Origin: Morchella semilibera
Lineage: Eukaryota > Ascomycota > Pezizomycetes > Pezizales > Morchellaceae
Assembly (NCBI GenBank): GCA_009192285.1
Contig: WBVU01000009.1
Location: 1,240,001-1,304,000, forward strand
DNA length: 64,000 nucleotides
Reading direction: 5' to 3'
The notes under the pieces are model-generated. The model did not search any database. It was not told the origin of the DNA and was given only the letters and a program-made list of their open reading frames with translations. Every line of letters begins with the position of its first letter. The first letter of the stretch is position 1. Shown one piece after another: positions 3,721 through 64,000 of the stretch. The position numbers were made by a program, and so were the translations under genes.

Positions 3721-5631
3721 TGGTATCGGACTCCTCCTCCCTCCTCCCTCCTCCTCCCCCTCCCAGTACGTGGCAGTGGCGGTGTCCTGTCTTGGCCCTA
3801 TATCATCCAATCACGATTTGCATAACTCTCGACCAACCACCAGAGCGTCTCCAGACTTACCCTTACACCCCGGTACACCTTGGAGGCCTAGGGTCAACTG
3901 GTAACGTTTCACAGGATCAATTTCTTAATTTGACCGGTACTCGCGGCTCCGCAAGTTAGATCACGCAGTGTAGGTGATGCAGGTGCTATTCATGGAGCTG
4001 CACTGCCAGAAATTTAGTTTTTTTTGTAAGTCCTAAGATACTGTGTCTCGAAGAATTAAATTAATGTTTTGGAAAGTATCAATAAATTGGTATTAGATCG
4101 ATCCGATCCCAGGCCAAGTCCAATGAATTAGATCCTTTTGTTGTTAATGGCACTAGATCAGTACCGCATCAGTACACACTTGTGACAGATGCGCGGCGCT
4201 CATCCATGCGGCAATGACAGTGGCATCACGATGGGCCACGGTACGCGGTGAGACAGTCAATTCAGAGGGGCTTGTAAATATCAATCACAGAGTACGTACC
4301 AATATCTGCAAAATTAAACCGTACCATTTCCTGCGCTTCTCTACAGCCAACTGACACGGACAGTTAAAGTGACGTGGGGGTTCACCGGTGTCAGGTCACA
4401 GATCCTCAAGTAGGTTTTAAATTTTCTGCAGGGCAGAGAACGAAGATACTGAGTGATGCCGGTTGATGAGCTGCAGATGCAGAACAGACCTAAGAGAAAG
4501 TGATATGTTTTCAATCAATCAATCCCTTATAAGCCTAGTCACCGTTAATTATTATAATATAGGGCAAACAATTGTCTGGATTGTCCATCTTCGATGGCAC
4601 ACGTACAGGAAGGCAGATACTTGTGGAGTACATAAGTACATGCTAGAGCAGAGACGTATGGTAGATTACATTGTTACCTACAATGTATGTGGGCATTTCG
4701 AATAGTCGTCCAATACACGTTGGAAACTTCGAGACATTTCCCCCACTTGGCTTAGCCCAGCCTCGAAATGCCCCGCCCAATTGAACATCACCATCTCATC
4801 AGTGACCACTTTGTAAGTACAGTAACGTCCTGTCCCCGTAGGCCCGGTTTGATCTACGTAGATATAATAGGTCGTAGTACGCTGTAGGTACATCCATACT
4901 CGGGAGACGATGGGTCCCAGGTAATCATCTGCCTCCGAGAAGCACATATACCCCACATCGCAGCTCATTTCGCCCGCTGCACAAAGCCATACTAGCACTG
5001 ACCGCAAGACATCCCAAAGGACATCCCGTTTTGTGCGTTAATTCTCGTCGAGAACCACTACCTGTCACACTGCTATTTCATTCTTTAGCAGCGGCAGCGG
5101 CGGTCTGTTTTTCTGGGGTATCGCAGGCGCGCGAGCTGGCAGCTGTCTTTTTTACGACGTGATTTGTTGTAATTTTAAGTCGAGGTTTGACGGGAAGAGG
5201 CATTAAAGAGCATCCAAAAAGACCTTACATACTGCGGCGTTGTCGAGTGGAGAGCGGGAAAACAAGTGAACCAACGGGCTGTGGCCGTGGACGAACTAAC
5301 ACACCTATCCTCTTAGACATTTCTCTTTGCTGTTACGCTGTTCAACACCACTATTTGCTTTGTTTATTTGTCTCTGCATTGGCTGGCCTAAGAGTCCTAA
5401 TTATCGCCGGCACCATCGCCCGTCACTATCAGCAAAGGAATCGACAGGGACTTCTCGAGGCATCCTTATTGTAGTCGACCGTGTCGTTAGTGTTGGGTTG
5501 CAGGTATCGCGGCTTTATCCAGCAGGTAAGTTGCTTCCGTCATCTTCTACACACACACCAGCCTTATCAGCCAGGTTGGCTGTTGATCCGTAAAGCTTGA
5601 GAACCTACATGTACCTATTGGACCTTGAATC
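3721..5631. other. Spacer without a supported gene
   Basis: I see no convincing coding sequence here. Short open frames on both strands (for example 4678-5007) lack domain-like features. The right end of the Tc1 element should lie somewhere in 3.7-4.1 kb, but I could not identify a TA-flanked terminal repeat. One TACATGTA palindrome lies at 5606. Confidence 0.5.
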
Positions 5632-5842
5632 TATCCCTTAAACCGTCAGGCTGAATCGAAATGAGAGGTACTCAAACCCTTTATGGTAATCGTGACGAAA
5701 CCAACGCCAGAGGGTAGGATCTGTAGTTGTTAGCATGCGTGATAGGTTGTAGCAGCTTCCAATTCTGCGCGATATTTATATCACGGTTACCATAAAGGGT
5801 TTGAGTACCTCGTTGCAATTTGGCCTGACGGTTTAAGGGATA
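5632..5842. mobile_element. MITE with about 60-bp terminal inverted repeats
   Basis: The left end begins TATCCCTTAAACCGTCAGGC and the right end is its inverse, GCCTGACGGTTTAAGGGATA. The similarity continues inward: GAGGTACTCAAACCCTTTATGGTAA on the left is matched by its complement on the right at about 5785-5810. The whole element is 211 bp and has no coding capacity, as expected of a miniature inverted-repeat transposable element. If the outermost TA at each end is the target duplication, it would belong with the Tc1/mariner group. A second element with the same terminal ten bases lies at 45131-45267. Confidence 0.85.
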
Positions 5843-5967
5843 CATTCAAGTATTTACCCTCATGCCCTTTTTTCCCGATTTCCGATCGTCCCCTCTTATT
5901 TTCTGCGCCCCAGCGCTTCTGGGTCGCTTTTTGAAGTTAATCGTCACTGCTCTATTTTCCGTCAACT

Positions 5968-6005
5968 CCACCACCACCACCACCACCACCACCACCACCA
6001 CCACC
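5968..6005. repeat. (CCA)n microsatellite
   Basis: About twelve uninterrupted CCA units lie roughly 120 bases upstream of the start codon of the next gene. They are probably in its promoter or leader. Confidence 0.95.
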
Positions 6006-6121
6006 GCCCTACCATATCTACTATGCCTGCACAACCTGGGCTAACTGCATTCCTATATTAACAGTAATACCCAGTCAAAGAACACCGAGAAGGAGAATAA
6101 GACTTCTCTCTCTATTTTGAC

Positions 6122-9203: not shown

Positions 9204-10369
9204 GCCCTGAGGGTTGCTGTCATTTTTATACCATTTCTGATTTCATGTATTCACCACTTCCTTTTTCTGCAATTTTCTTCTTTGGGTTTTGTGCACATTT
9301 AGCATTATGGGCGACAAAAAAGAGTATATGGCTGTGGAAGGGGGTATTTTTTTGAGTTCCTTTCATTTTATTTCTTATATCCCCTTTCAACTTCTTCTCC
9401 CAATTGCACGTATGTATGGGGGGGGGGGGTTCTTATGATTTGAAAGCTCATGGTCAGGCGTACAAGGCGGACTTTTTATTACTGGAGTGGTGTTTTTAAA
9501 GGTGTGCCCTACGCAGGAAATTATTGTATGGACTTTTATGTGACTTGGTCGTTTAGATGCATGATCCTTTAGGCCAGAGCTATCTAACAGTTTTTTCTTC
9601 TTCTGGTTTGTTGCTAACCATATCCCAAACAAGGGTTATCATCATGCCTTCCAACGTTACCCTTGTATTTAATAACACGCCTTGATTGGCCAAATGCAGT
9701 ACATACATGTACGAAGCTTCCTAGCGAAGTTAGACCCTCTGTAGCGTGAACTTACTTAATATTTGCGTCATTGCGCCTCTTGGTCCTTATTAATACCCCA
9801 TGGAAAAGCTACTAACAACGTTGTCAATCACCATACATTGTCTTAAAGTCCAATTACCCACATATGAGATAATGGGACACCTGACGCGGACGTTCATCAG
9901 TTGCTTCTAGCGCTACAAAGGCGGTCGTAGATCGTCACCAAGACGACCAGGATTTGATTCTCTATGGAAGCTGGTTCTGCCCTTTTGGTTTGTCCGGTTG
10001 TTTGTGTTATATCATAATCCACTCGCGCCCTTCCAGTACAGCTTTAGAGGAGAAAAAAGTCCCGTACAAATGTGTTGAAGTTAATCCGTATAATAAGCAA
10101 GACTCCTGAATTAAGATCAACCCCCGAGGCCTCGTTCCAACACTCGAGCGCAAGGGGAGGGCCCTCTATGAGTCTAGCGTCATCTGTGAGTTCATTGAAG
10201 ATACCTGCCAGGGTCAGATGTTGCTCCCAGATGGCGCATATGATCGAGTATATTCAAGGCTTTAGGGTGATTTGGTGTCCACCAGGATCGTCCCGGAATT
10301 TCATCGGTATATCCAACCCTTGCCAGTTACCGACATGCCAAGGCTAGGAGAGAAGAGACAGTAGTTTTT
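9204..10369. other. Spacer
   Basis: The first few hundred bases are the likely 3' untranslated region of the preceding gene. A run of 12 G lies at 9418-9429 and a TACATGTA palindrome at 9704. I see no gene. Confidence 0.5.
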
Positions 10370-11590: not shown

Positions 11591-11621
11591 TTGCACCAAC
11601 GCGGAAGTCTGTTAAGAGGCA

Positions 11622-17927: not shown

Positions 17928-20510
17928 AATTAGGGGCCAAAGCTAGAGGTTAGAGTAGAGTTGGTTTGGTTCGTCGCAGGACTGACGGTAGAGAATATTA
18001 CTAGCGCCATTTCTTTAGCGGGGATTTTCTTCTGGGGGCATACTGTTTCGATTATTTGGGAATATTTTCTTTTGTACTCTATGAAAGATTGGGTATATGG
18101 CGTTATTGATCGGTCGGGGTGCCATCGGTAGGATTTTGCATGCCTGCGAATGCGGGATTGTAATAGTACTGCATTTATGGGTACTTCTTGTACTTTTTTT
18201 TCTTTTGTTACTGTACTAGCTTATTTAAGAGGTATTTTTCTTTTCTCCCAAGACACTCTAGTATATCTTGTAATTTATGAAAATATCTATTGCCTTCGCT
18301 TGTGCGATGTAAAACCACGATGCGGACTGGAGTCGCGAGATGGAAGTACATTCATTGTACCTCACGGGCACGTGCTGCCGGGCGTCGTTGTGGATTATCA
18401 GTATCGGAATTAATAATATGGACTGCTGATGATCGACTAGACGGCGGCGGCGGCTTCCAGTCTAGATTAGTGACACGATGAAGGAAAAATTTTGCTGATG
18501 GGTGGATAGATAGTGATATGGCCTAGCCACACATGATGATGATGACGGGTATACGGCGAGACCGATATTGAATTCATCCCGTGCTTTCTGACACTGCTGG
18601 GTTGGACAATGACTGTTTCGTTCCTTTTTTTGTTCCCCCACGAGGGTTGAGGCTGTGGTGAGATTGTATATTGGGGTGTACGCAGTTGTAGTATTAGTAT
18701 TAGTATTAGTAGCAGTAGTAGTAGAGGCAATACCCATGGATGGGCGTCCTAATATAAACCAGCGACGACGTGACTCAGATCATGGATATATGGCTAAGTA
18801 ATATAATGTAGTTGTAGACCCTCGTATAACAGTGAAGCCGTCGGGAGGAGATGAGGGATGCAGCTCAGAGAACTCAGAGCCCGTGTACGTTGAGTATCAA
18901 TCAATGCTAATGAGAGCGAGGTGTTGACGCGAAGGCCCAAAGACCTAGTTAAGTGTGTATTGTAGGGGGGTCGGCCGCAGATCTCGTCATTGGGGATAAT
19001 AATCACACGAGAGCACACAATCGATCAACCACATCACGATCACGGGAAGGGGGGGAGGGCTAAATAATACACATACCTACATGTACTTGGGTATCGTGTA
19101 AGTTGAAGTATCTAGGGTATGGATGGTATGGATGGAGATTTTAATCTTTTTGCACTCGCGCCCACGCACCGCACCACGTGCAGAGTGGGATTGTGCACTT
19201 GGGCGGGCAGGCTTACGTTGCGTATGTGAAGAAGCTTATTTCAGCGATGTTAATACTTGATCTATGGCGTGGGGGGGTGAGTGAGGTGGGGATTACTTAG
19301 TCATCAGTGGTTGGGCTTTGGTGCTTGTGCTCAATCGGACCTGCATTGAAGTGGGCATGTGGAGGTTACATGATGTAGCTTGTGAAAGGTAATACATGTA
19401 GATACATGCTACATGTGAACGTAAGGGTTAGGGTACATTGCAGGAGGAGTTGTAGAGAAACGAGACTTTAAGCTTTATGTAGAGCACGTGGTCTGGTAGA
19501 TAGAATTATTGCAAACGTGGGTTCGCCTGGGGATTCTCGGGACGGATTGTGCTCAAGTTAGGTTTAAATAGTAAAGAAGGTCGTAACTGTCATGCGTTGA
19601 GAGGCTGTGGCTTAGTGGTTGTGGTGTGGGGATGGAAATGGGGTGGTCGTGGAGGAGAGGGTGCCGCAGCCGCGTATGGGGGTGGGCCCAACTCCTGCCC
19701 CTGGTAGACTAACTTTTTTATTTTTTCATTTTTTCAGGCGTATCTATCCCCTAGGTCGAGAATGTGGCCGGATCTTCCTTCATATGTTTCTTGTAATTCT
19801 ACCAGGCTCTGTACCTATGCTGCGAAGAGGACAGGAATCCTCAGCTTCGTAGTCGTATATAAGATGTACAACATACATAGACATTGTTTATCACACACAA
19901 ACTACTTACATACATGTGCCGCCCCCCATTGTGCACGGTAATCAATTCACGATACAGAAGACGACTACTAGTACTATTGCTTGCAACTGGTGGTAAGTAC
20001 TTGATACTCTCTCTAATTATCTGGAATATCCAATTATTTTGAATCTATCTATCTAGCCAGACAGGGACATTAATCAACCAATCAGACAGTTGATAGCTAC
20101 ATGTACTTAGGGACCTCAGTTGGATCTTAAGCAGTCTATCGGATTGAATATTTCCCAACCCACTTGGCGCCAAGGATTAGTACTACTAGTAGTGTCAATG
20201 ATTATTTGACCGCCATAATTGATCCGCGAGTGAGCGTATAATTAATTAATCTCAGGGACGGATATTTTCCTTGGAATTGGGACTTGATTCAATCGACTTG
20301 TGAATACAACAGAGAATATCAGGATATCCGATCCCCAATTAATCAATCCAGCTCATATATCTACAGCACCTGTCGAAACAGAATTATATCTTTGCCTGGG
20401 ATTACTAAGACGATTAACTCTGTGCAACATCCCCCCTCCAAAAGGTTCTACGACGTCATCACTCACCATCCGAATCAACACACGACTCGACTCAACTCAA
20501 CTTCACCAAC
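17928..20510. other. Spacer
   Basis: The 3' flank of the transporter gene is T-rich. Further on lie a short trinucleotide-like tract (TTAGTA repeats, 18690-18725), three TACATGTA palindromes (19078, 19393, 20098) and E-box-like CACGTG near 19170. I see no gene. Confidence 0.5.

Positions 20511-36901: not shown

Positions 36902-36907
<6 letters not shown>
31883..36907. other. Upstream region of veA and gene-poor DNA
   Basis: The first kilobase presumably holds the veA promoter and leader. Open frames at 32109-32486, 32966-33523 and 34018-34635 have no homology I recognise, start at non-ATG codons or show low complexity, and are left uncalled. TACATGTA occurs at 32902, 33039 and 36088. Confidence 0.45.

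Positions 36908-36938
<31 letters not shown>
36908..36938. repeat. Poly-A tract, 31 bases
   Basis: An uninterrupted run of 31 A preceded by GAAAAGT. It could be the tail of a retroposed sequence lying to its left, but I found no LINE or SINE sequence there, so a plain mononucleotide repeat is equally possible. Confidence 0.9.
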
Positions 36939-36942
<4 letters not shown>

Positions 36943-40862: not shown

Positions 40863-40893
<31 letters not shown>

Positions 40894-43800
40894 CTGACCC
40901 GTCCCCGTAAACGGTGATGAAGTTGAAGTAGGTGTACCTACATGCACGCACAGTTATTTATCGGAGTACTTCCATCACCCCGTGCAGTGAGCCAGGTCCC
41001 TATCATTTAGTTGTCTTTAATTGAATTGATATATATGGTCGGTTTTATAACTCATACATATAACAAACCCGCGCGTTCGATAAAAAAATGTCGCAAGCTA
41101 TTAAAATACTCTCTAGCTCTGCAACTGGCCTACTGCTTAAGCGCGCATATACGGAGCACCGGAATACCACGAATAATTGAATGGAGAGTTAGGGCATCAT
41201 CATATAAAGGATATGACACCGAGTGATATCCTATGAAGACACCACTCATGCCTACAAAGCACAACGTTAGTGAGGAAATTACGGGAATTGGAACAAGTCG
41301 GAATCACAAGAGGCTTTCTAAGCACACAAAAAATGTATAACCATAGGGTAGGGGGTTGCAGTCGGTGCACAATTAGACTACCTAATCGGCCTAGGGGCTT
41401 ATAATTTAAGAATATGGGTTCTAGCTCTACAAATTCGTAACTTTGATTCGAATATCAAGGGGTTCCTGGGCGTGATCAATTATACTTTCGTATCCGAGGC
41501 TAAAAGCCAGCCGGCAGCTCGTCAGCATCACATAAACGCGAGGGAAGCGGGGATCTGAGGGAGGAAGCTGTTATATATGCCGGCTCCTTTTTTTTTTTTT
41601 GACCAAACGTTAACCTCGATAAACTACACTAACTAACAGGGAGGCGAATGGCCATAAGACAAGGTTCACATATCTATCCTTCACCGATCCACCGGGAATT
41701 CGAACCGCCCCCCCCCCCTTGCTTTGTGCATGTTATGCAATTGCACCATTGTACCATGATATTTCTTGGCAAGGGATTTTTTTCTGAGTTTTTCGGTTTG
41801 ACAGCTGATATATCATGGTTTAGCTACTTAGATAGCTAAGCAGTGTGATTGGATGGTTTGCACCGGCCTCAGGGCGTAAGGGGGGTATTATGTATGTACT
41901 CTAATGGAGACTGTTGCTCATTTGTGTTGGCATATATAATATGGATCAGAGGAGCTGAGTTGGCGGGTTTGAATTAGAGTGCGTGGGAAAGAGTATATGC
42001 TTATGGTAGTTGTTCCGGCCGGGCCTTGCGGGGGAGCGCCGGGGGGGGGGGGTTCGAAGACTGGGCTGTGGCTCACTAGTACGCGGTACATATTGTACAT
42101 GTACCGAACAGTTTAAGAAAAAAAAAACTCTGGGATTTTGTACTATATTGGCGTGACGGGGGTGGAAAAATGAGCTGAGTATCAATTTCTCCCTCCCAGG
42201 AATGATAGTATATAACAGCGTTATGAGTGATTGCCTGTGACTCAAAACTTTTAATCCTCCAGGAAGATGTAGATGAGATCACAGTACCCACCACTGGTGA
42301 GCAATGACCAGCGGGACACAAAAAAACCCTTCGGGTTCGTTCGTACTATACACAAACCTACAAGCTACTTTATAATTAATTATACACGTCCTACAACTTA
42401 TGTAACTACGCCGCGCGCGCGGCGGCACCCGGCCGTCCGCGCACGTCATGCATTTTTCTTTCTTTCTTCCTTTCTTTAATTATATAGCATAATTTATGTC
42501 ATGTCGCGATACTGTGTAGCGCCTGAACCCTTTTTTTTTTTCCTGCATGGCGGCGTGGCAATGTTTCACGCATCATGTCCAATGGTTGACTGACCGGTTG
42601 GTTTTATAATTAATAGGCGGCGCGGCCACGCTGGTTCAGATATATCAACAACAGCTCGGATTGCTCCTATCGGTATATATAATAAAATAATGGGGGCTGT
42701 ACTGGTATGGTACTACGTACCATGACTGGCCATGGTTTGGTTATACTACGGGCTTTTGTTTATGTTTTGCGAAGTGGGAGAGAATGCTAAGGAATATCCG
42801 ATACATGTACCAGGCGTCACGTCACGTAGGTATAATGTAGGCTCCCGGCATTGGGGGAGCGGAGATCAAGGGGGAAAACATTTAATATCAAGAGTATAAT
42901 TCTACGTATATATATATATATATATGCGACCACTACTACCATTGCCAATCTATCTACATGTAGCTACATACATGTAGATATGTATTCACCAAAGACACAC
43001 ATCCTCCCCCTCCGGGTTCATTTTATTGGTATGAAACAGGAACTGCATGCTAGAAAGTTCGCATGAAAAACATTGTTCCCGCAGGGTTTTCTGCCTCATC
43101 ACAGCATCGACATCACATCACAAATGCAGGGCAGTTATGAGGGAGGCTAGAGATCGACACTACACTGTCGCGAGGCTGGAGACGATATAATTTATCAGGA
43201 GCAAGCACGTGGCAGTCTCTTTGGGAGTTGATGATGGCCAGTGGGGAAACAAGGGAGAAGGGAATCAAAGGGTACACATATCTAGATAATTCCCTGGCTC
43301 GTGGCTTTTCAAGGTATTCCCCGAAGTAATGACTGAGTTTTGGGATGGTCCGATTCTCGATCGAACCCCGAGACAGGTTACTTTAAGATAGGGTGGTTGG
43401 GGTTGGGGGGTACCTACGTACGGTAGATGGTTAGTTCTCTTCTTTTCTCCCCCACTTCTCTTTTGAAGCAAATCAGGGATATAGGTATCTGGAAAGAGAT
43501 ATCATATTGAATTTATGGTGGCAAATTTCATAGGTACGTACGGCAGATTTTTGAAACTCAGACACGCGCGTATATATAGGGTATTCATACTTTTAGATAC
43601 TAGAGGGCCCGGAGTTAAATACTCAAGTTAGCCTACTGAGTTATATATGTCAATACTACTCAAAGCTGGGGTATCTAATGAAGGAGGAAACTACCAATTT
43701 GTTTATATAGGTAGTGTGCATTAAAAGCACTGCAACGATATGAGCGTTGTTGTTCAATTACAATTTGGGGGGATATGTGCCAGGCCTTTCTTTCGTGCGG

Positions 43801-45130
43801 TGTGATTAATTAACCAAAGGCCTCACTGCTTTAGTAACATGTACAGACGTAGTACATGGTACATGGTAGATGTACATACGTGTGTATGTGTATGTACATA
43901 CATATGTACAGTATGTTGTACTCTTTAGGCGTAAGAAAGCGGATGTATACTGATCATGATACCAGCGGGGCTTACAAAAGATACATACAGCCAACAGCAG
44001 AGATGTAACGACGGAAATGTTAACCGCGGCGTAGGGCAATAATACTGGCTCGGAGGGTATCCAATAGTGATATGAACCCGTGATATGATATGATGATCCG
44101 GGGAGACAGACGGGATGAGGAAGCAATTGGATGCACGCACGTACGGGATGGCTTGCAAGGTCCAAGGCGTACTGGGAATCGATATCGATGTAAGAGCCTC
44201 CTGATCCGCGGACGGATTGAAAAGGTATGAAATTGCGATATATCCTTGGTCAGATCTATAGAGCCTTGCCTCGACGATATTTTCGCTAATTAGCTGTAAT
44301 AGTAAACCCTCTAAGATATGGAACCACCTGAATGGAAATGGAACCACCTCAAGTCACTGAAAAGCAATGCTACGCGGTTACCCGAGACATGTGACCAATA
44401 CTTCTATGTTATCCTCTTCTATGCTTTTTCCTTTCCCTGTCTGCAGTGACCGCCATATATTGTGGACTGTGTGGGGTGGGGGGGGGGGCACAAGAGATGT
44501 TTCTATAGTTGACTTTTTGGGAGCATTATAGTCTGCTTTGGAGGTGAGTATTTGATATATCGTGTCATTGGCGGTGAGTCACTAACCTGAATCATTTAGA
44601 GACTGCGGTGTTGCAATTGGCTGGTGGTTAAAGACACGGGGTTGGGCGAAGAGTGGCTATACTATAGCACAAGTATATGGTGCTCGCGCGCGCGGGCCTG
44701 GGTGGTTGATATATTTGAGAAAGTATAGGAGGCTCTGTATCATCTTCTTGGTTAGCTATAGATACATGTATATATATATAGGTCAGAAAGTATAGTACCA
44801 AGGGGATTTATAATAGGACAGTACTGGATATATGTGATTCTTGCAATTGACGATGTTGGCTCTCGTTAATTTTCTCGCGACGTATTCCAGCTAGGGTTAA
44901 TTACTGCTTACATGTACTTACATGTAGTGTTAACTTGTAGGGCTACTTGGATAAAATCGTTATGATCTGATAATAACCCTAACCCTCAACTAAGGTCAAA
45001 CTCCACTTGGATCCAAAACTTGCAGCCCAGCTATATTAGTGTCGTTGAGTTGGATTCAAGAGTCAAGGCCTGCTTGGCCGGGGTAGCGAGACCTCAGTTC
45101 CCGCAGCGGATTATATATACATGTAGTGCC
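36939..45130. other. Gene-poor, repeat-rich DNA
   Basis: No gene is supported in this 8 kb. It holds a cluster of C or G runs of ten or more bases (38586, 39211, 39422, 39905, 40099, 41708, 42041, 44478), two TA arrays (40863-40888 and about 42907-42925) and 14 of the 30 TACATGTA palindromes. Traces of old elements may be present but are too decayed to name by eye. Confidence 0.5.
40863..40888. repeat. (TA)n microsatellite
   Basis: Thirteen TA units without interruption. Confidence 0.95.
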
Positions 45131-45267
45131 TATCCCTTAAACTGTCAGTAGAGTGTTGGCCCCCCAAAAGTTGCTAACAGATCCTGTTATCTCTATCAAA
45201 TAATTGATCTCCCGTACAAATTCCGGCCCTCTATTATAGAGGGCCAGCATTGGCTGCTTAAGGGATA
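45131..45267. mobile_element. MITE, same terminal repeat as the element at 5632
   Basis: The element begins TATCCCTTAAACTGTCAG and ends CTGCTTAAGGGATA. The terminal ten bases are identical to those of the 211-bp MITE at 5632-5842, and the imperfect inverted arms extend inward to GGCCC on both sides. It is 137 bp long and has a strong central palindrome (GGCCCTCTATTATAGAGGGCC, about 45225-45246). There is no coding capacity. A TACATGTA palindrome lies just outside the left end at 45118. Confidence 0.8.
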
Positions 45268-46108
45268 ATGGTAATGCTAGATATTCGTAATCAGTAGGTC
45301 CCGTGCGTATGTAACTTTCGATCATATAAGATATACCGGCTGAAATAAGGCCTCAAACATACATATATGCATGGATGTGATCAAGGACCTCACAATTACT
45401 TATATTGAAAACTGAAACCTAATCGTAGCCCTAACCCTGATTTATTTCTCACGCATATACAATCTGACATAGTTAGCTTGGCAAATATATAAGCTTAAAA
45501 TCAGTAATACATGGCTACTGAAAATGTTAAGGGCCCGTTTGGCAACTAGACAAATTTCCAAGGATCAAGGCCTAAGTACAAAAAGATCGTCGAAACAGAG
45601 TTTCCGTTTTGGCCTGTTGCCATAAATACCCAACCCAAAAGACCCTTTTCAGTGTCTGTCACGTGACTCATGCAGTAGCATACAGTTATTTAATGAGTAT
45701 TTAAGAGTACTAGTGACTTACCCCTATAATATATAATGGACTAGTGCTGCTAGGCTTGGTGGCTTTAATCTCTAGTTATATTCATGAAACGTCACTCGTT
45801 GTCACTGGGTTTATTTCTGCGAGATATTTGGCCTCTCAAATCATTGTGGAACCGCGTCCGGACAGGTGCGCACCGTGTGGGTGTTACTTTTATCTTGTTT
45901 AATTTCTAACGATATAGATAGTGAACTAGGCCCTCATCCCTTTGACTGTATTCAGCACCTGCGGCTAATATGGGATTTTTCTAAATTGAGGGAGTAATCT
46001 TGGTGCGCAGTTAAAATATCAAGTTATTTTACGTCCGTTTTGCCTTCCTTGCTTTAGGCTCTTGCTGATCAGAGTCGTGGAGAGAGCGGGACAACCAAAG
46101 GGATATGC
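45268..46108. other. Spacer
   Basis: I see no gene. A single TAACCCTAACCC-type match near 44984 and another near 45432 are too short to be interstitial telomere arrays. Confidence 0.4.
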
Positions 46109-46422
46109 ATGCCGGCCAATTCAGTCGCCTCACAATCGATCTCGAGGCCCGGCTCGAGCTCACAACCTTATACTAACACGCATCAATGTCATGATACTAG
46201 GTGCTATTGGTACAAGAACCATCTAGGAAACCTAAAAGCGAGGGAGAAAGCTGAATTGAGACGATATGCAAAGATTTGCGGGAAACATACGCCATATCAC
46301 ATGAAATTTAATCGCATAGGTAAGTATTTGACGTGCATGATATCGGTGTTTGTGATAACACATGATACATAACCAAATCAAATCCTGCATTTCGTAATAT
46401 TAACCCTGCTATGACAGAGTAA
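46109..46422 (+). CDS. Possible small Cys/His protein, 71 residues, two exons
   Basis: I do not recognise this gene. An ATG frame (46109-46319) ends at a perfect donor, GTAAGT. A possible acceptor, GCTATGACAG, with an upstream TTAAC branch-like site, joins in phase to a very short exon (46418-46422) that gives Glu and then a stop. The predicted protein has a Ser-rich N-terminus and a basic part with cysteines and a histidine spaced C-x4-C-x24-C-x2-H (CHDTRC ... CGKH), which could bind zinc. It is the only plausible gene in a 21-kb gap and may instead be a fragment of an old mobile element. Confidence 0.35.
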
Positions 46423-49400
46423 ACCAAGAGGAAATGTTTGCAGTACTCCTAAAAACCCGCGGATAGCAATTCCGACCTCTAACCGCTCATCCGACATATA
46501 AAAACTCTAGCCAATAAATTTGTTTGATCGCTTCTGATACTGGATCCGAGGGCCACCTATGGCTCCAGAGCTTCCGCATGAAACGTAGGAGGGTCCTTTA
46601 TTAAGTGCCAGGAAGTTGAGGGGTTGTTTTAGGTCTTCATACATATATGCTCTCTGCATATATTAATGATCGATGTTGTGCAGGGGGAACAGGCTGGTAG
46701 CAGAACGCATAGAAAGTACCGTGATCATTAGTGGTCAGTGAATGGTGTTTTTCTGCGTTCCTCCTTATGATATAGGTTAAGATTTTATTATTAATCGGCC
46801 GCCTTATAACTATTAATTTAAATTTCCCCCCTTCTCTTCTTACATATATACTCTACTACGATATGAAAAAACGGTGTTAAATTACTACGGAATTTAGTGA
46901 CGGGAATACTGTAGTGATTCTACACCACTTCCTGGGTACTGTATATTAGACCAAACATTCAGCGTTTATATACTGGGGGTGCAGGTCATAAAAGTTGCAT
47001 TAGTGCTTGATACTATACTATTTGATCATGGGAGATATATATATATGGTATGAATTAGACTATCATCGTACTGCATACACTAAGTAGGTATAAACCGAAT
47101 AAGTCTTTTCTAGATTTATCTCTAGACCTATCTAATTTTCTAAGAACCTTAGTGATGTATTTAGATCTCGATAGGTTTCGTAGCTCAGTTAATTCAACAC
47201 ATGTGAATATTAAACCATGTTAGATACATGTATATACTTAATCTCTTGTCATCGATTACGAGGCTTGTAGCCACAAAGTGACTAGGGAATTTCTTGCGGC
47301 CTCATTCCTTGAGAGCAGTGGTGACATAAGTTAGTTAAAATTTAAATTAGAATTAAAAAAGTTTACCTTAATGGACTAAACCTAGGGTTTGCTGGTGTAT
47401 AGCCTTATCTTATATTCTGAGCACCGCCGCACTCTGCTAGTCACACGTGTAACCCATAATCTGGATGGGTTTGTGCGGTCCTCCGCCAGAGGTATCTGAA
47501 TATTGGGATTCAAGGACAACAAAATCTATTTAGTGTGGGTTAGGGTTCGACATGGAGACATACTACAAATATAATACACCATCTATTAAAAATACATGTA
47601 TATAATTCTAGGGAACTCCTGGAAGGGTATGAAATGTTAAGATCGGGTCTCTTTGTTAAATAAGCTAGGGCCCCCCAATTGTATGGAATTAATTGATTGG
47701 AGAAAGCAGGCCAATCTGGGGTAGCACTAATCCAGGAAGCAGCCTTTATCTCTAGCCGCCTCTTTTTGAAAATAGTAGACCACGCAGGGCGGACTTTATT
47801 TCTGACGGTGGATGCTCGAGTTTGTAGTGGGGTGGTTGTAGAGACCTAGATAACAGGTTTCAACGATAGCTATCAAGGCCGTAGCTGCAGTGATGCGATA
47901 GGGGCCCGAATATAGTCCCTTTTTCTACTAATCATGAGCGAGCATATTGATTACTGAATCCTGAGGCGGTTCTTCATGCCGAGTCATGAGGTAACTAGCT
48001 CATGGAGTTAGAGCTTTGTCACGGAGTTTTGATATTGACGTAGGATATTTTATGACCCATTAATTCCTGTTAATACCCCAGGACTCAGTTAGTGACCGGG
48101 GTAGGTAATATTAGCTAGCAAGCAACCAGAACTAGGCAAAGGTTCCGGAGAGCATATCGACACACCCCAGGGAGTCCCGGATTAATTTAACTACTTTTAG
48201 GCTTGTCACTTTACGTAATTTCTATGCGAGTAACAGCCTTTCGGCAGCTGACCACTCAGATGATTTTCCGGGACGCTGAGGCTTTGCGATACACCACAGG
48301 CATGAGCATATGGGATTAATATATTGAGCCGTTAGGTTAAGATATCGAGGACGTGCACGACTAGAGTAAATGTCCGTGGGCGGTTCATCCGGTCCGCAGA
48401 GAGCAGTTCGGTATATGAGAGTTCACATAAAACGCAACTTAGCTATGAACATCTTTAACTAGATAGCGTTTGCGGGCCGACCCGGGGCGCGAGAAAACTG
48501 CGTCGAGCACCCTTTGTGTGCGAGTGATATTTCATGTCTGCAATACCGAGAAGGCATGTCTGGGGTCACAAGGAGCCATCCCTTGCAGTTTCCGTTGAGC
48601 TAGTCCACTGGGCCAACCATTTTTGCATGCCTCTACATATCGGACATCGACAGGTCAGCCCCCAAAACCTTCCCCGCAATTCCAAACTTGAAATGTTTCG
48701 TGACTCTGGTAGAGTGCTATGTATGTTTGTGGATTGAGACATAAGATCGTCGGAGCCGAAGAAGCATGGAGAAAAGACCTGGCTCTGGCCAGGTTCATAG
48801 TTATCACGAGGATATATATACCCATGCAATTTTGAAACATTCCGATCATAAATTTCTGCCCCTGCTAACCAGTGGGTGAATGATATGATGCCTGGAGATA
48901 CGACTTGCATAATCAGCTCTCCGCTCTAGCCTAGCTCTTGAAAAGAGCAGACACTCTAAGAGAATAGATAGCTACGCACGATGCGATTTATACTATAGAT
49001 TGTGGATTACTCTAGGCCGCAGGTACGTACGAAGCTCGAAAAGGCGAAAGGTTGTAGGTGGATAGAGTGGGTACATACCCTATCCCATCTAGTGAACTCT
49101 TAGCCGGGTGAACAGCACACAACGTCATATGTACCCTGATGCATTTTCCTTCTTCTAGAACCAGATGCAGCGACATCTCTTGAGCCCCCAAGATATTAGG
49201 GCGCCTACATAGAGGCTTTAGGCTCGAGCTATAGTTCTGGGGAGGAAACGTGGACCAGTAGAGGTATTAGTTCGCGTGCACCCCGGATGTTTGCTGGCAG
49301 TCTAGGGTGTAAGGCTAACAGAAAAAAGGAACAGTATGAAAAGCTGGGGGATCTGTTGTGTATAAACTGGAGTTCCCCATGATGAATATGTATGCTCTAA

Positions 49401-52400
49401 AGTATGTAGGAGCATCCGGTACTCCAAAGTATTGATGGCTCACATGCAGTAGCACAGTCTAGTTCATTAGACATCTATCACGAATCTCGGTCCAAGGGTC
49501 GGAAAGTGATAATGATGGCCGTAGTGAGTCCCAGTGATGCTGGGGTAGCGGGGAAAGCACCAGTGCTTGATCTTCTGTACTCCGATTACGCCAGGATAGC
49601 GTCGATATCAGCATCTCTCTTAAACAATATCCAGTTATCCGGGCCGCATCACTTGTAATCATCGGCAAATGCATGGTCTAAAGCCCCTCTTGTCATTCGC
49701 TGCGCACTCCTCAGGAGTTCATGATAGGCGAGGAATTAAGCGGAGAGGGGTGTGGAGTTTAAAAAGGGCCTCCCGGTGCAATCAACCATCACAAGTAATG
49801 AGAATCTAAAGTAACGTGACCAGTCCTTTTTCGTACTTTGGCCGTGGCCCTGCAGCGGAAGAATTAGTTTCCCCACCCCGCCCCGGCGCCCGCAGCTCTG
49901 CCCATCTTTGAGGGTACCCTTACTCTAAAGGACCCGGAAAACCGAGAGCTCAGGAAAAAGAAAAAAAAGAAAAAGAAACCAAAAGGTTCGACTGCCATTG
50001 GCTGGAATTTGACAGAAACCAGCTCTATGCAGCATTGCACTCTAACATATCGAGACGTGGCCATCATTCTTCTGAAGTGCTTCTGACGAATGTGAGACAT
50101 GTCCCGGAGGTTTGGTGGTGGTGCCATAGGGTGGGAAAATCAGGAACAAGGAAGATGCTGGATGCTGGAAGCTACTTTTCCTTCTTTCGTGATCGTTGTG
50201 ACATGTCCCTTAAACGGCATCACTGTAAGGATTACTACTCTATCCATGGTAACACTTAGGGGGGAGATAGATATGTAGAAAGCTTCGTAGACAGCTCTTT
50301 GCCATTTTTTCTTTATTTTTTTTCGTGGCCGACATGGTCTGAATTGAAATGTGGGATGCGCGAGCTCAATTTATCTGTTAGATAACGTCTTAGCATTGCA
50401 TTGGAAAGGATTAGATGTGAGCTCCTCACCACCAGAACTCTCGGCTTCAGATATCAAATAACCTGCAACGCTCTACTGATGAAGCTATTAAGGCCACCAA
50501 TCAACATGAACAGTTATGTTCGCACGTACTCAATTCCAGTAATCGAGATGTGATATAGCCCGTCGGGGAGGTAAGGTTCATTGATAGGAAGGGCGCCAAT
50601 GCTTCCTTTCCTTCAAGGCTCTTGAGCCTTGACTCTCTTCCTCGGAGGATATGCACCGGTGGCGCTCAAAATGGGTACTCTACTTCTGCTCTACTCTGTG
50701 GTACATACAGTATGTAGGTAGGATTACTGTGCACATACACACGTACATATGTGCGGACGTACTCTAGGGCATGTGTGTATTCAATTCAATGTACCACTTT
50801 AAATGCATGCGTGTTGTGCAGATTTATATTCAGAGACATCCACAATGAAAAAAAGAGTTAAGCTTGTGCAAAGACCTAAAGTATTGGCAGAAACGCGTAT
50901 GTACAGGCCTAATATGGGTTATCGATATTGGGGAAAACCGCACTCTATGTAAAACTACATGTACCGTTTAGCGGAGTAGAAAATCTGCAGAAGCACACAC
51001 TTCAAACCGGGACTTTCCATGGAACATACACATCAGAGGTTTCAGCCTCCGATGATAGTGAATAACGCCACATGATCACCTGGAGACCTGGAGTTCAGTA
51101 GATACTTTCATGTATCTACCTACAGTAGGTATTTATCCACTCTCAACTTGTTCTGCTGTAGGTTTTTATACCAAGACTAACTGAAACTGCATACATGTAA
51201 CTGCCGTCGAATTTTGGTACAACTCCATTTAACGTTATATATATAATATCCTTGTATCTAAACTACATGTATACTCTTCGACAAAGGGTGCAACGGGCCA
51301 CTACAGGTGGCTGCAGGTGGTCGTGTCTTTTTTCTTGAAAGAGGTGCCGGCACGGCCGTGCTTTCTTGGTACCGTCGGTCTGTACTCGAACTCTTGGACG
51401 TATGATTTCCACATACTGGCCGCTATCCGTGATGTGGATAAGAGGGAACAATCACAGGTGAAAGCTCCTTAAAGAGTCATTCCCGAATGAACGGCATTGA
51501 GAGGCGCATATGGTGTGAGCTTCTTCACAAATATGGCTTAGAGGTCACATTACCAAGATACATACATAGGACTTTTCGATGTTCTTTGATTGCCCGAGCG
51601 AGTAGTCTGTTGCAGGTGGCAAACAAGGTCATGGTCCCTGTATTTTAAGCTCTTGTATAGAAAGCGTTACGTAGCATTCCGCCGGGATTCAGAGGTCGGG
51701 TTGTATTCCAGATATCCTTTCATTTCGGACGTTTCCAGGTAATTGTATGTAACGGGGTGACAATGATAACTAATAACTTTCGCTGCCGCAAGGACAAACG
51801 GAGATTTAAAACCGTGCATAGTAATATCACAGCATTAGTTGAGTCGGGGGGTAACGAGCGGTGAGTGCTAGATATCGTGCTTTAGACCCGCGGCCACGAC
51901 CACGACCACGGGTATGAGGTTTTGCCCGTAGCATTCTTTACCAAAGGTAAAGGGTTACTATATAATATACCCCTGACCAGATTGCAACAAAAGAAATCCT
52001 TGACCCCTTCACTCTGGTTAGCCGTGTTTGACTTCCTCACAAGATGGCCAGTTCTTGACTCCGATATTTTAATCCGTAGAGTAGGGTCAAGGGCTGACAA
52101 CCTGTAGTTATTAAATTTAGCTAAACCAAGGTTTAAAGAATTTTTTTTCTCGCCCGGGAATCTGTATTCTTGAGTCATTGGGTATTAAGAAGTTGTGCCT
52201 GCAGAGAGCAGCGAGCAGCGGAGCGGCGCTATCGTACCCTAAGCCCCATAAGAAAACCGTTAATTCTCGAGGTTTGTCCGGGCCAATCAACACGAAACGG
52301 AGCAAGGGCCAAGTTTGTAGCTCTGCACTGACATTTGAACGATCGACCGCTTTTTTTTTTTTTTTTGAATTTCCAGAAATCATCACTGAAGGAGTATCGA

Positions 52401-53530
52401 GGGACGCGTCTGGCCAAGGGAAGAGGGAAGCAAGGAGCCACCAAAGAGGATACGCACTTTCACATCCACACGAGGCCGATTAACTTCTAGGGGGGGCTGG
52501 GGATAAAGTAGGAAGTTGTCAGAGAAGAGTGAGGAAGGGACACACACGTACTGGAAGTGGAGGTACGCCTCCTCAAGTTTTCAGGTACGGGAAACAAACC
52601 CAGAACAACCGAGAAACAAAAAAAAAAAAGCTACTGCCGGTGTTAGTGCACCCCCCCCTCCGCTCAGACCGTTCTTTGCTCAGTTAAACCCCATATCTGA
52701 AATTTCTCACTCGTCTATGTATAATACAGCTTGCAGGAGGGGCTTTCTCGTAGGAGAATAACATATCATACTGTTCTCTTTATCAAGAGAGAGATACCGT
52801 ACATACTAGGTTAGTTATCTCATCTATTACCATCCATCCATCACCCATCCGCACCCCCCTCCATTCATATCCTCCCCAATATCTTATCTCATCCACCACT
52901 GGGAGTAGCCGCCAAAAAGAAGTAGGTCAAATCATCTGTGAATAGATCATTCTAGCAAGGGGTTGGCTGGTTGAGAGTGGAAGGGATAATAGTGGGAAAA
53001 TACATCTTCTTTTGCAGTATCTACAGTCAGTTACACTTCAGATTCAGACACAGCAAAAAAATAAAACTGAAAACGCAAAAGGGGGAATAAAAAAGGGATT
53101 TCTTTTTCAATTTTTTTTTTTTTCAGAATCCCCCATTTGATCTCAAAGAAAGAAACCCCCCCCCCCTCCTCTCCAATCCCAGTCTACTCCTACTCTGGTT
53201 GAATTAGAAACCTGCGCGACGTTTACCATACCAAGATCCAAACTGCGGAAGATTTCCGGAGTTCCCAGACACCTGCTGTCATCACAGGCCGCCCTGTGTG
53301 CGAGCACAGACCTGCAGCCCACCACCCAGCGAGTTAACCCAATTTCTGGCGAACCGACGAGGCCTGCTACCCGATCGTGTAATTGGTCCTGTTAACTCAC
53401 TCAGTCGGGTTCCGACAGTTTCCCAGCGGCGGCGGCGAGGTCGCCCTTACTACGTTCCGTATAGACCATTCCCGTACCCAGTTGGGCGAGATTCTGGAAA
53501 GCTGCCAGGGAGGGAAGAAGGGGGGAAAAT
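46423..53530. other. Gene-poor DNA, continuing
   Basis: No open frame here shows a recognisable domain; the frames at 48566-48910, 49864-50127 and 51882-52178 are not supported. TACATGTA occurs at 47225, 47593, 50956, 51192 and 51264. From about 52500 the sequence becomes CT-rich and probably contains the promoter of the Kelch gene, with a run of 11 C at 53156-53166. Confidence 0.45.
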
Positions 53531-53801
53531 GGAAATGGCTGATTCATATGCGGCTCTCCTGGGGGTGGGATCTCCTACTGCCGCAGCGCTGGCGGCGGAG
53601 TCTGGAAGGTGTGTGGAAGATTTATTCTCTATTTATTTGTTGTCTTGATTCGACCATTCATTCGTGCCTTACTGTGAGGGGCTCTGCTTGCTTGCTGCTG
53701 CTGCATGGGGAGGATCAAAGTGAGAGGAGAGAGGTGCGGAGGTCATCAAAGAAACATCACTACAACCACTATCCAAACTGCTGTGACTCTGAATCGTGAA
53801 C

Positions 53802-56682: not shown

Positions 56683-58437
56683 TTGGGGTCATATGCTTTA
56701 CGGAGAACCCTAAAAATCGCATATATTACAGTTTGAGCTGGGGTACAGTTTTTTTTTGGAGCGGTTAAATGTCTTTTTTTGAATTCGATTCTTAATGTCC
56801 CGTCGCGAGCTGCCTGGAGCTTCCTTGGGGCTGGACTGTGGGGCGAACGTATCCTATCTCCTTTATTTGATACTTCCTCACTTTTTCTCCTTTTCCTTTA
56901 TATATCTTTTTCTTTCTTTTATGTTCCGACGGATTGAGGACAAAAGGAGTTGTTTTCTGGGACGGCAAAAACTTGAACGACAGGCACTCAGGAGTGATTC
57001 TACGGGTTGATGAGGTGGGGAAATACCTAAAAAGGAACGTGGGAAGAGGGCGGCAATGATACCTTCGGTGAGGCGTGGCTTGGACTTGGGCTTGGCTTGT
57101 TTGTTTATTCTTCTTGTTGTGGGTGTTTTTGAATCATTTTGGTATTTCGTGGTGGTGGTGTGTGGTGGTTTGGGAAGGGGGGGGGGGGCGCAAAACAAGT
57201 TTATATCCTTCATTCGTTCCTCTTTTTTGTCTTCATTTTATTAGTTTTGTACGCGTATTTTTCCTTCCTGTTCTGTATCATGAGCCTTCTTTCCTTTTAA
57301 TGAGTGATGGATATGTTGTTATTTCCGTTTTTCATTTGTTTAGACAATACTTCCTTTTTCTCCCCTCAGAGTCCAATACCTTACTCTGCCTATTGAATGC
57401 TTTCTCTGAAATCTTTTTTTTTTTACTCATATAGAAGTGAGGGAGAGCTCTGCGCCTGTTTTTCCCTTAGTTGTGTAGTTAAAACAATCAATGATAATTT
57501 TGGAAATGATACGGGTAGCAAGTTTTTCCCTGAATATTTTTAGGCACGTGAGGCGGCAAGCTCGAGCTGGATTGAGAGGTTAGTTGAGTAATTTAAAAGC
57601 AACCACATGCCAAAGTACTACTCGGGATCTCCATGTATTGTAGCTAGATCTGATATGTAATCCTAATATTCTAGAATAAGAAAATCTCGATTGTAGAAGA
57701 AGGGGGTACGTAGGGTCATCCTCGATCATTCGGAGAAACCCGGCCAACGCAATACATGAGGGAATGGGTACAATTACAACGGCGTTCTAGAAAGGAGGGA
57801 AGCGGCGATGGTGAATAATCCCCGAAGAGCCTCTCTGAGCGCCATAATCTCACCACCTCAATACAGGGTTTGGGTAACCAAAGGGGGTAATGGTTCCCCA
57901 GCTTGTTACAAATACGAAGATTTCATTGGTTACATGTACCAGAAGTTTTTTCTTTCTTTGCATGTTAGAAACCTCGCCGCGAGGGTTTTTGCTTCTCCTA
58001 GATCTCCGGAGCACCGCGGTCGGAGGGACGGAGGAGGTCGTATGTTTTTTACCCGACTGCTTCCGGTACGTCATACCACTTTTAGTCATAATTAAAGAGC
58101 TCTGGCTAAGCCGATATTCCCCCGCCAGCTGTATTTTTGGGATTTTTTTTTTCTTTTCTTCATCTTTAAAAACGATTGAGACCTCGAGCTTGGAGCTGTC
58201 TATCATACTCCTTTTTTTTTGCACTATCAGTTTGGTCGATAGTTCATTGAGGTCTCTAAAGTCTTTCGTTGTCTCTTTTCAAGGTTTCTTGGGAGGCTGT
58301 TGGCGTCATTTAGACGAAATCTTTAGCGCACTGCACAGGGTCAACCATAAACCAACAACTGTCGCTTTTTCTTTCTCTCGCATCAGTACTTAGAACATAA
58401 CTTTTTGCAAAAACACCATTGCATCACTCAATTCAAC
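56683..58437. other. Spacer between Kelch gene and rcf2
   Basis: T-rich and pyrimidine-rich DNA containing the 3' flank of the Kelch gene and, to the right, a strongly T-rich promoter for the next gene. A run of 12 G lies at 57177-57188 and TACATGTA at 57931. The open frames are low-complexity and uncalled. Confidence 0.5.
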
Positions 58438-61143: not shown

Positions 61144-61469
61144 TTTGAGGGGATTGCGAGGTTTCAAGGGGCCTTAGAGGCGGGAATTTGAGGTGGTGAT
61201 AAGTGATGATGGTTGTGTGAGATATATACGTGAAGTGAGGTGAGGTGTTGTTGGTCTATGCTATGCTTTGTAGTGGTGAGGCTCTTATGGCTCGCTTGCG
61301 GCGTAGATAGTGACCCCTACCCTGCCTGCCCTGTGAAACACCAGGGTCGAGGGCTCTACAACTGTTTTTATTTTTCTTTCTCTTTTTAGGAATAGCTGGT
61401 GATAAAGATATTTGATTCTTTAAAAGAAATTTAATACTAGTACTAACATTATAGATTTCAGTTTAGTAA
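61144..61469. other. Short spacer between isy1 and the dehydrogenase-like gene
   Basis: This 326-base stretch must hold both the isy1 promoter and the 3' end of the downstream minus-strand gene. A T-rich tract at 61365-61390 is a plausible polyadenylation or promoter element. Confidence 0.4.
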
Positions 61470-62577
61470 TCATGCACTTCCCCCAGCTACCTTCGCCTTT
61501 GCGTTCTTAAAAGCTTCCATAGTATGCTCCCACACCGCGCCCCTCTTCTCTTCTGACCACCAATCCCCAGACCTGCTCATCCATCCCTTCGATCCAGTTC
61601 TTGTATCTGTACTTTCACCCTTCCAATCTACCAGCCACAAGCCCTTTCTAAACTTCTCATTCGTCCCCAACCACGTAAACCCTTGCCCGCAATCGTCAAT
61701 TGGAACCGAGAAACACTTCATGAGTGGTGTAGCGACAGTAGCCAGGACCCTCATTGGCGTTGGCAGCTCTCGGGTTATTCCAGTCATTACAACGCCCGGA
61801 AGCGCGTGGATCCATCCGATCCCAGGGTTTTGGATAGAAAGATGCTCGAGCGCGAGAGAGGTCATAGTCACCGTATGGATCTCACAGTTTGTGAGTGTAA
61901 AGTTCCCGGGTTTTGCGAGTGGAAGATCGTCCATGATAAGAGGGCCCTCGCGGCTAGTCCCAAGAACACTGATAACACGAGCAGACTCTGAGGCTTCTGA
62001 GGCAGTCTTAAGAAGCGGAAGGAGATTCGTGGCGAACCGTAGACGACCGTAGTAAGAAACGGTCATTTTACGGTCGAGGCCTTCGGGGGTTTCCTCGCGA
62101 CCGGCCATACTCATGTAGCCGGGTGACATAAAGAGCAGATTTAGCTTCTTCTCTTTTACAGCGATTTGAGAGCTGATATTATCAACACTTGAGAGAAGAG
62201 TTGCATCGGCCTTTAAAAACTGGATCTTAGAGTCGGGGTTGAGCTTTTGTAGCTCGTTGGTGATCTTTTCTCCGGAAGCTTCGGACCTGATGCTTGTTAG
62301 TGGGGATTCTGATCAGTGTGTAGGGATTTCGTGCTAACCGTCCAACAAAGTAGACCGTAGGTGCCACTGTTGAAGACACAAATGTCTTCATCGCAGTCTC
62401 GCCAATCCCAGATGTTGCGCCAACTATATTGAAAAGGCTATCAGTATCATAGCTAGCTAGATTAGCTGCCTAGCCACCTGAACGTAGTAACGTACCAAAC
62501 ACAGCAACTAAGCCCTTCGCGCCCGGTGTGCTTGAAAAAGCAGCATTCGTAGACCTTATTGAAGCTATTCCAACCAT
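61470..62577 (-). CDS. Short-chain dehydrogenase/reductase-like protein, atypical active site
   Basis: Exons 62577-62496, 62423-62339 and 62286-61470 splice in phase to 327 residues. Introns use GTACGT...ATATAG and GTTAGC...CATCAG. The fold is a classical Rossmann SDR: the cofactor loop GATSGIG sits at residues 29-35 across the first splice, followed by VYFVGR and KADATLLSSV, and a third strand reading KLNLLFMSPGYMS where most SDRs have NNAG. The helix after strand five, which normally holds YxxxK, reads TNCEIHTVTMTSLALEHL and has neither the Tyr nor the Lys. The nearest Tyr pair (YYGRLR, about 133) lies earlier and has Arg rather than Lys. I recall fungal relatives with the same substitutions, some near secondary-metabolite genes, so this may be a subfamily trait. 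Substrate and activity are unknown. Confidence 0.85.
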
Positions 62578-64000
62578 ATTTTTTCTTGCTGATCTGTCAA
62601 AGTTTGTAGTTTAGTTTTTTGGGGGTTGGACGTAGCAACGAAACCTTATTATATCCCGACCCCGGATTTAATACACAGTCAGGTTAGGCTTAATTCCGCA
62701 CCCCTGTGTGACAGAAGCTTCAACCACACAGGAGCTTCAGCTGCCCGAGTATGACGTTGGCACGGATGAACGATACCTCCGTTGAATGATTCGAAAGGTT
62801 CTATGGGGGCTCGGAACATATGTGTCACAACATCGGAACTCCGCGCCTGGGTAGGGAAGTTTCGGTTCGGTAGCAAAACAGATAGATGCATTGTATGCTA
62901 AATCTCGGGCGGATAGATAGACCAATTGAGCGTGTATATCCGGTTAATCGTTGATTTGACTCGAAATCATTGGCCTCGTTAGTTGAAACCAAGAACCAAT
63001 AATTACGAGTGCCAAGACTGGCTTTGTTTGTCGAGTGACAATACATGAACCAGGGTCATTTTTTTTTAGTGCACATCTAGGGGAATGGTGTCGGTGTGCC
63101 GTGATAACCAAGATGTGATATGTACCTGCATGTACCAAATACTGCCCAAGGCTGTGGCTGTGGATCCCTTGGTTAACCCATTTTCTAAGTTCATAAGGCT
63201 TTGGGATCATGGGACGTCGATGCCTACCTGCTGTGTATCCCAGAAAATGGAGCAATAACAGGGACTTTTAGCATAATGCAGACTCCATGTATGCAATATT
63301 CTGCACCCTCAGATGTAGAACACTGTTCCAAATCGAAGGTTGACAGCCGTTGCCAACACTTTTTACCCCACGAATGACAAGGTTCCCGGCGCTCCCAAGA
63401 AGCAGGCCACTTTAAAATCCTAGGCGGCATATCAATGAGCTTATATCATATTTCTTTGTTGAAGGGTTGGACCACTCTCGGAGACCTGTGCAGAAGATAA
63501 GCATACATGTAGTAACTTGCTGTATTATATCTATAGTTGAACCATCTAGTCGAAGGTTCCAATGTAGACCCGAGCAGCCTGTATACAGCAACCATGACTG
63601 GTATCTATCCGCAAATACCCCTTTGCAAATTTGTTGGTCTGAGAATGATCGTGGGTGTATGGTAGATATCTACACCCCTCATCCAATGATTGATGGGCCT
63701 GTCACACGCTCTTTCTTTATCTTTATGCCAATAGTGGTTTAAGTGAGGGGTCGCCGGGACGAAGGCGCAACTTTCTAACCCAATCTCCTAGGTACAGGCT
63801 GTGGAAAGTTTTTTATTATTATCATTATTATTACATGTATTTAGCCCATTACTCTCTAGCACTGATGCTGGTGAGGGGTTGAGCCATAAATGGATGCTGG
63901 TGGTGATGTTTATGGTGAGGCATTAATGGAATGTTTTGTTGAGAGGGGTTGAATATTGAGAGAAGAGAAGTGGCAATTCACACGAATCGGGTGAATTCCA
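62578..64000. other. Spacer at right edge
   Basis: It contains the promoter of the SDR-like gene. TACATGTA occurs at 63504 and 63832, the second next to an ATT trinucleotide stretch (63813-63832). The short open frames show nothing recognisable. Confidence 0.45.

Follow-up and report, generated by a model that had tools for sequence, protein, structure and literature searches.

The general regulatory factors of yeasts, among them Reb1, Abf1 and Rap1, read strict and abundant words that lie in intergenic DNA beside many unrelated genes, and HIP1 of cyanobacteria, an iterated word, is also found in coding DNA. HIP1, GCGATCGC, is linked to DNA methyltransferases in the extract of the source consulted (PMC4390886). 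According to extracts of two further papers, the octamer TACATGTA is motif-1 of Phytophthora, found upstream of 12,070 Phytophthora genes and suggested to be bound by a homodimer (PMC3520976), and is likewise M93, with 4,150 occurrences in the promoters of P. infestans, where it is tied to general growth (PMC3597505). The first of these extracts furthermore states that TACATGTA is the preferred site of Irx, an Iroquois-type TALE homeodomain, and gives taCATGta as a possible rare footprint of Tc1 excision (PMC3520976). Here we consider the same 8-letter palindrome in the morel Morchella semilibera, starting from a 64-kb stretch of contig WBVU01000009.1 (positions 1,240,001 to 1,304,000; the window in what follows), in which an earlier note had described it as thirty-fold over-represented and strictly intergenic. 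In our judgement TACATGTA is probably the core of a site for an abundant homodimeric factor that would co-bind on one face of the helix in DNA upstream of genes. Among the papers listed from a limited open-access library, judged by their titles and the opening lines of their abstracts, none reports TACATGTA in a fungal genome, the word not having been searched together with Morchella.

The window holds 30 exact copies of TACATGTA and no further ones, at precisely the 30 positions that had been read by eye (Table 1). Markov models of orders 0, 1, 2 and 3 expect 1.2, 0.9, 1.3 and 1.9 copies in the whole window, and those of orders 4, 5 and 6 expect 5.6, 14.2 and 21.8, the latter being models made from long pieces of TACATGTA itself. 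Within the predicted intergenic DNA of the window (44,498 bp) the expectations at orders 0-3 are 0.96, 0.83, 1.22 and 2.13, the last becoming 1.24 when TACATGTA is masked. The thirty-fold excess is hence a fair description at low orders, but at order 3 it shrinks to some 14- to 24-fold. Dinucleotide and trinucleotide use (orders 1 and 2), which by the earlier note would refute the excess if its intergenic form predicted some 30 copies, accounts for no more than 1.4. Among the 8-mers present at least 10 times in the window, TACATGTA has the highest ratio of observed to expected copies at order 3 (15.6), the runner-up being poly-C (9.4).

This abundance is a feature of the whole genome and not special to the window. 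In 56,756,124 bases on 23 contigs there are 22,206 copies, or one per 2.6 kb, and 3,723 copies of the reversed control word, part of which may sit in TACATGTACATGTA arrays that contain it. These counts are somewhat inflated, since the assembly includes near-duplicate contigs: C9 and C10 differ by no substitutions and four gap columns over the 8 kb compared, with five TACATGTA each, and C12/C13 and C21/C22 have matches at nearly equal coordinates, all three pairs being perhaps uncollapsed haplotypes or assembly duplicates. The word is furthermore exact across the genome, for the 24 words that differ from it at one position number 38,153 copies together, a mean of 1,590 compared with 1,749 for the one-mismatch neighbours of the control word, and TACATGTA itself stands 14-fold above its neighbours.

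A 314-kb sample, made up of the window, 100 kb each of C1 and C3 and 50 kb of C5, contains 154 copies, or 150 with overlapping ones left out (window 30, C1 62, C3 53 and C5 5), and the next best of the 64 palindromes of the same letters has 25. In its non-coding DNA, TAC-AT-GTA is found 151 times and each of the other 15 centres 0-9 times, by which counts the AT centre is essentially obligatory. The one-mismatch words that rise most in number are TATATGTA (23 copies, 9.8 expected) and TACATATA (22 copies, 9.9 expected), the two CA/TG transitions of TACATGTA, and four others, with only 9 to 14 copies each, reach about 1.9-2.3 times the expected number; such raised variants could be decayed TACATGTA sites.

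Beyond the core, the sampled copies prefer TA two bases out on both sides (T 63% at +3, A 54% at +4), and TA is found at -4/-3 in 61, at +3/+4 in 64 and at both places in 29 of the 154 copies. Genome-wide, the extended palindrome TANNTACATGTANNTA has 3,317 copies where about 119 would be expected from the intergenic TA frequency. With the core masked, the half-site TGTANNTA still occurs 132 times in the sample and its complement 176 times, compared with 65-71 for four control words, and a half-site signal may therefore exist outside the palindrome as well.

The copies are also spaced in a preferred manner. Close pairs with a gap of 0-24 bases number 2,294 in the genome, where the reversed control has 116 and uniform density would give about 217, and in 606 of them (37 for the reversed control) the gap is exactly 2 bases, which makes a 10-bp repeat. 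Uniform density would give about 9 such pairs, but the average of the other close gaps is a fairer yardstick, and as the remaining 24 gaps share 1,688 pairs, about 70 each, the 10-bp excess is near nine-fold. Among the first 100 pairs listed, which are all on C1, 23 have the 2-base gap whereas every other gap occurs at most 7 times, and since the linkers of these 23 pairs are of 10 kinds, or 6 with the strands pooled, the pairs are not copies of one duplicated unit. The window has a single pair at this spacing, 44909/44919.

The protein-binding site that the earlier note had proposed is well supported in this way, though indirectly, since its exactness, the dyad symmetry of its flanks and the one-turn spacing of its pairs together argue for selection through homodimers that co-bind on one face of the helix. 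We infer protein binding, a dimeric state of the protein and its action in promoters. The full site would be TANNTACATGTANNTA, to which an abundant sequence-specific protein would bind as a symmetric homodimer, with one half, TGTANNTA, read by either subunit. Where two neighbouring sites are separated by one helical turn (10 bp), their dimers would co-bind on a single face of the helix. The sites would sit in intergenic, probably gene-upstream DNA and be kept from coding sequence and introns, and their exactness would reflect selection that retains only sites well read by the protein. Its role may be like that of the yeast general regulatory factors, opening or marking promoter chromatin at thousands of sites rather than serving as a pathway switch, and TACATGTA shares with the sites of such factors its length, its strictness and its excess in intergenic DNA.

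The position of the copies relative to genes was judged in the sample from the models of a simple self-written hidden Markov model (HMM), which gave 86 predicted genes and does not amount to expert annotation. None of the 30 copies in the window falls inside predicted genes, which span 30.5% of it, and so far the word is strictly intergenic as claimed; in the whole sample, however, 3 of the 154 copies are in coding sequence and 1 in an intron, the other 150 being intergenic. The corresponding densities are 0.825 per kb for intergenic DNA, 0.025 for coding sequence and 0.083 for introns; at the intergenic density the 12,110 bp of intron would hold about 10 copies instead of the one found. Intergenic DNA up to 100 bp from a predicted start (7,356 bp) has no copies, and that at 400-800 bp (17,569 bp) has 25. 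Divergent intervals hold 62 copies in 57,183 bp, tandem ones 74 in 86,128 bp and convergent ones 12 in 32,649 bp, and the density is 0.37, 0.86 and 1.08 per kb with 0, 1 and 2 gene starts facing the interval, respectively (permutation of interval labels, p 0.013 and 0.022 for two contrasts, and 0.016 without the 22-kb interval of Table 1). Genes with at least five upstream copies are varied and include those for adenylate cyclase, S-adenosylmethionine synthetase, isopropylmalate synthase and a Sec7 protein (names by eye) as well as velvet and Kelch genes (Pfam), a variety more in keeping with a general factor than with control of a single pathway. On C3, the divergent interval between isopropylmalate synthase and S-adenosylmethionine synthetase (515385-516935, names by eye) has 7 copies in 1,551 bp, with one pair spaced 6 bp and one spaced 10 bp.

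Several observations nevertheless speak against a homodimer that acts in promoters. Copies are as dense 2-3 kb from predicted starts (18 in 11,026 bp), and dense as well 100-200 bp past the predicted 3' ends of genes, where 6,943 bp hold 11. Of six control words, all but poly-G, namely TATATATA, ATATATAT, poly-A, poly-T and poly-C, share the lean towards facing starts, TATATATA having 0.21, 0.44 and 0.68 copies per kb at 0, 1 and 2 of them. The bias may therefore partly reflect exons or untranslated regions missed by the gene models, and as an argument for promoters specifically it carries little weight. Furthermore, the density is uneven, as C5 has 5 copies in 50 kb though 18 genes are predicted there, and the reversed control also has raised reversed flanks, in 251 of 3,723 copies, which is above chance, although some of the 251 probably lie inside TACATGTA arrays. 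It should also be mentioned that most transcription factor sites are less strict than TACATGTA with its unenriched one-mismatch variants.

It is conceivable, if doubtful, that TACATGTA is instead a highly iterated palindrome that serves DNA metabolism and not transcription, comparable to HIP1, be it as a methylation mark, a signal for recombination or repair, an element of replication or chromosome organisation, or a word driven by conversion. The single-base exactness and the copy number near varied genes do resemble iterated words, and the lean towards promoters is slight and not specific to the word, but a word needed chromosome-wide would hardly be so scarce outside intergenic DNA, introns included, and both the one-turn spacing and the TANN flanks point to cooperative protein contacts.

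An origin from mobile DNA is unlikely. Apart from neighbouring copies, comparison of the flanks of the 154 sampled copies gave one similar pair only, which bears out the earlier statement that they are not simply copies of one repeat, and a dispersed repeat is rejected because the flanks share no repeat family. Tc1-type transposons might still have left TACATGTA as an excision footprint (TA-CA-TG-TA), as the Phytophthora extract cited above would allow, or have used it as a preferred insertion target, and a rough search of the 314-kb sample for inverted ends flanked by TA did give CA as the commonest of 16 classes with 19 matches, followed by TG with 15. These 19 matches do not, however, make up a dispersed family: TACATGTA or arrays of it account for 8, another 8 are crowded into about 4 kb of the C5 sample, and 3 stand alone. 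As no dispersed family of CA-ended inverted repeats (TA-CA...TG-TA) was found in the sample, the footprint is not supported, and neither is the insertion target that the earlier note had suggested, the sampled flanks having no repeat family in common. In addition, the two complete TA-flanked inverted-repeat elements examined in the window begin with TCCCTTAA and not with CA, and the symmetric TA at +3/+4 and the exact 10-bp pair excess would be left unexplained. A comparison of C9 with C10 for TA versus TACATGTA at the same site gave no substitution over 8 kb, with five copies in each of these virtually identical contigs.

The two TCCCTTAA-ended elements, TA-flanked inverted repeats that resemble miniature inverted-repeat transposable elements (MITE-like), are found at 45131-45267 and 5632-5842 of the window, 5 and 18 bp from the nearest TACATGTA. 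A third, single TCCCTTAA end at 24084 is 4 kb from the nearest copy, and with only three examples in the window the nearness of the other two may be due to chance.

A signal at the RNA level in transcript ends, such as a 3'-end processing element or a Pumilio-like UGUA element, is very improbable. The half-site contains TGTA, and some copies lie 100-200 bp past predicted stops (the 11 mentioned above), but dyad symmetry that includes both flanks (61 left, 64 right) would have no reason in a single-stranded signal, and the density is lowest in convergent intervals, where there are 3' ends only (the 12 copies given above). Least probable of all is that TACATGTA arises as a side effect of base or dinucleotide composition or of slippage in (TACA)n and (TGTA)n microsatellites, for although related strings such as TACATACA are enriched in the sample (52 copies, 7-fold) and TGTA is the commonest flank there (32 of 308), low-order models expect about 2 copies or fewer in the window at orders 0-3 and the one-mismatch words stay at control level, which refutes it as sole cause, and the unrelated sampled flanks and the introns nearly without TACATGTA likewise speak against it and against the mutation-driven word of the earlier note.

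Candidates for the putative homodimer are weak. An exon-by-exon search of the genome, which can miss genes, gave one match to the KN homeodomain, on C14, that among solved structures is closest to PKNOX1, TGIF and MEIS, with no Irx chain listed. PKNOX1, TGIF and MEIS read TGACA/TGTCA, and the KN homeodomain gene is a weak candidate for the reader of TACATGTA. A CP2 gene was matched on both of the near-duplicate contigs C12 and C13. The core read by CP2 is of the CCGG type, which TACCGGTA would fit, but with 5 copies in the non-coding DNA of the sample TACCGGTA is not enriched, so that CP2 is only a weak candidate despite the presence of its gene, and a CNNG-type reader of this kind, as the Phytophthora pair of TACATGTA and TACCGGTA would suggest, was set aside. 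The BEN domain and the MAT alpha box gave no match in the genome search, which was made without a positive control, and the 5.8S model for ribosomal DNA found nothing above threshold, a weaker match being unconfirmed by Rfam.

Within the window, 20 copies had been placed in 32.9-51.3 kb; the stretch is dense as claimed, but the copies counted there are 21. They lie between a velvet-domain gene on the minus strand and a Kelch gene on the plus strand (Table 1), and at 21 copies in 21,919 bp, or 0.96 per kb compared with the sample intergenic mean of 0.825, the clustering at 33-51 kb is ordinary intergenic density in DNA without predicted genes. Possibly the tract serves as a regulatory interval of unusual length. 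When positions 36001-46000 were compared with the genome, no listed match was longer than 154 bases (39 of 151 candidates scored), and 39 of the 42 matches listed fall on the MITE-like element at 45131-45267, near-duplicate contigs included. Elsewhere in the window, the 93 bases at 23437-23529 (minus strand) are a tRNA by Rfam and not by ARAGORN and may hold an intron, and the predicted protein at 128-2334 (minus strand) is gag-like by eye, as in a retrotransposon, with no Pfam match for 1447-2334.

Table 1. Copies of TACATGTA in the window and the interval that holds most of them (window coordinates).
Feature	Position	Strand	Basis	Remark
Divergent interval without predicted genes	31883..53801	.	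HMM gene models, Pfam, counts	21 of the 30 copies
TACATGTA	5606..5613	.	exact match	
TACATGTA	9704..9711	.	exact match	
TACATGTA	19078..19085	.	exact match	
TACATGTA	19393..19400	.	exact match	
TACATGTA	20098..20105	.	exact match	
TACATGTA	29700..29707	.	exact match	
TACATGTA	32902..32909	.	exact match	
TACATGTA	33039..33046	.	exact match	
TACATGTA	36088..36095	.	exact match	
TACATGTA	37277..37284	.	exact match	
TACATGTA	37529..37536	.	exact match	
TACATGTA	37565..37572	.	exact match	
TACATGTA	37631..37638	.	exact match	
TACATGTA	39328..39335	.	exact match	
TACATGTA	42096..42103	.	exact match	
TACATGTA	42802..42809	.	exact match	
TACATGTA	42955..42962	.	exact match	pairs with the 42969 copy at 14 bp
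TACATGTA	42969..42976	.	exact match	
TACATGTA	44763..44770	.	exact match	
TACATGTA	44909..44916	.	exact match	first of exact 10-bp pair (TACATGTANNTACATGTA)
TACATGTA	44919..44926	.	exact match	second of 10-bp pair, with the 44909 copy
TACATGTA	45118..45125	.	exact match	
TACATGTA	47225..47232	.	exact match	
TACATGTA	47593..47600	.	exact match	
TACATGTA	50956..50963	.	exact match	
TACATGTA	51192..51199	.	exact match	
TACATGTA	51264..51271	.	exact match	
TACATGTA	57931..57938	.	exact match	
TACATGTA	63504..63511	.	exact match	
TACATGTA	63832..63839	.	exact match	

As a more far-reaching and tentative possibility, TACATGTA might be a single-word genome-wide code in morels, in which an as yet undescribed homodimer of high specificity on some 20,000 exact copies, best as TANNTACATGTANNTA in one-turn pairs, would be the main factor that marks promoters or organises chromatin, oomycetes having reached the same word independently. 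The word is a ready bait for the putative abundant DNA-binding protein of a cultivated edible fungus, and its shared abundance in oomycetes raises the question whether the same protein fold reads TACATGTA in both. The Phytophthora octamer (motif-1/M93), as given in the extracts, is identical to that of the morel, palindromic and very abundant as well. Phytophthora is however an oomycete that has a second, related motif, TACCGGTA (M94), whereas the morel sample has only the 5 copies mentioned, and in the extracts there is no flank or 10-bp spacing rule for the Phytophthora motif of the kind found here. The Iroquois site, as stated there, is likewise shared with TACATGTA, whereas the morel KN homeodomain match is, among solved structures, nearest to PKNOX1/TGIF/MEIS. 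The cores read by Reb1, Abf1 and Rap1 differ from the TACATGTA palindrome, and the copy number of the latter is higher. HIP1 is the closest iterated octamer, since both words are palindromic octamers iterated throughout a genome far above background. Unlike HIP1 with its coding occurrence, however, TACATGTA is mostly intergenic (0.025 per kb of coding sequence versus 0.825), and it is further set against HIP1 by its extended flanks and its preference for pairs at 10 bp.

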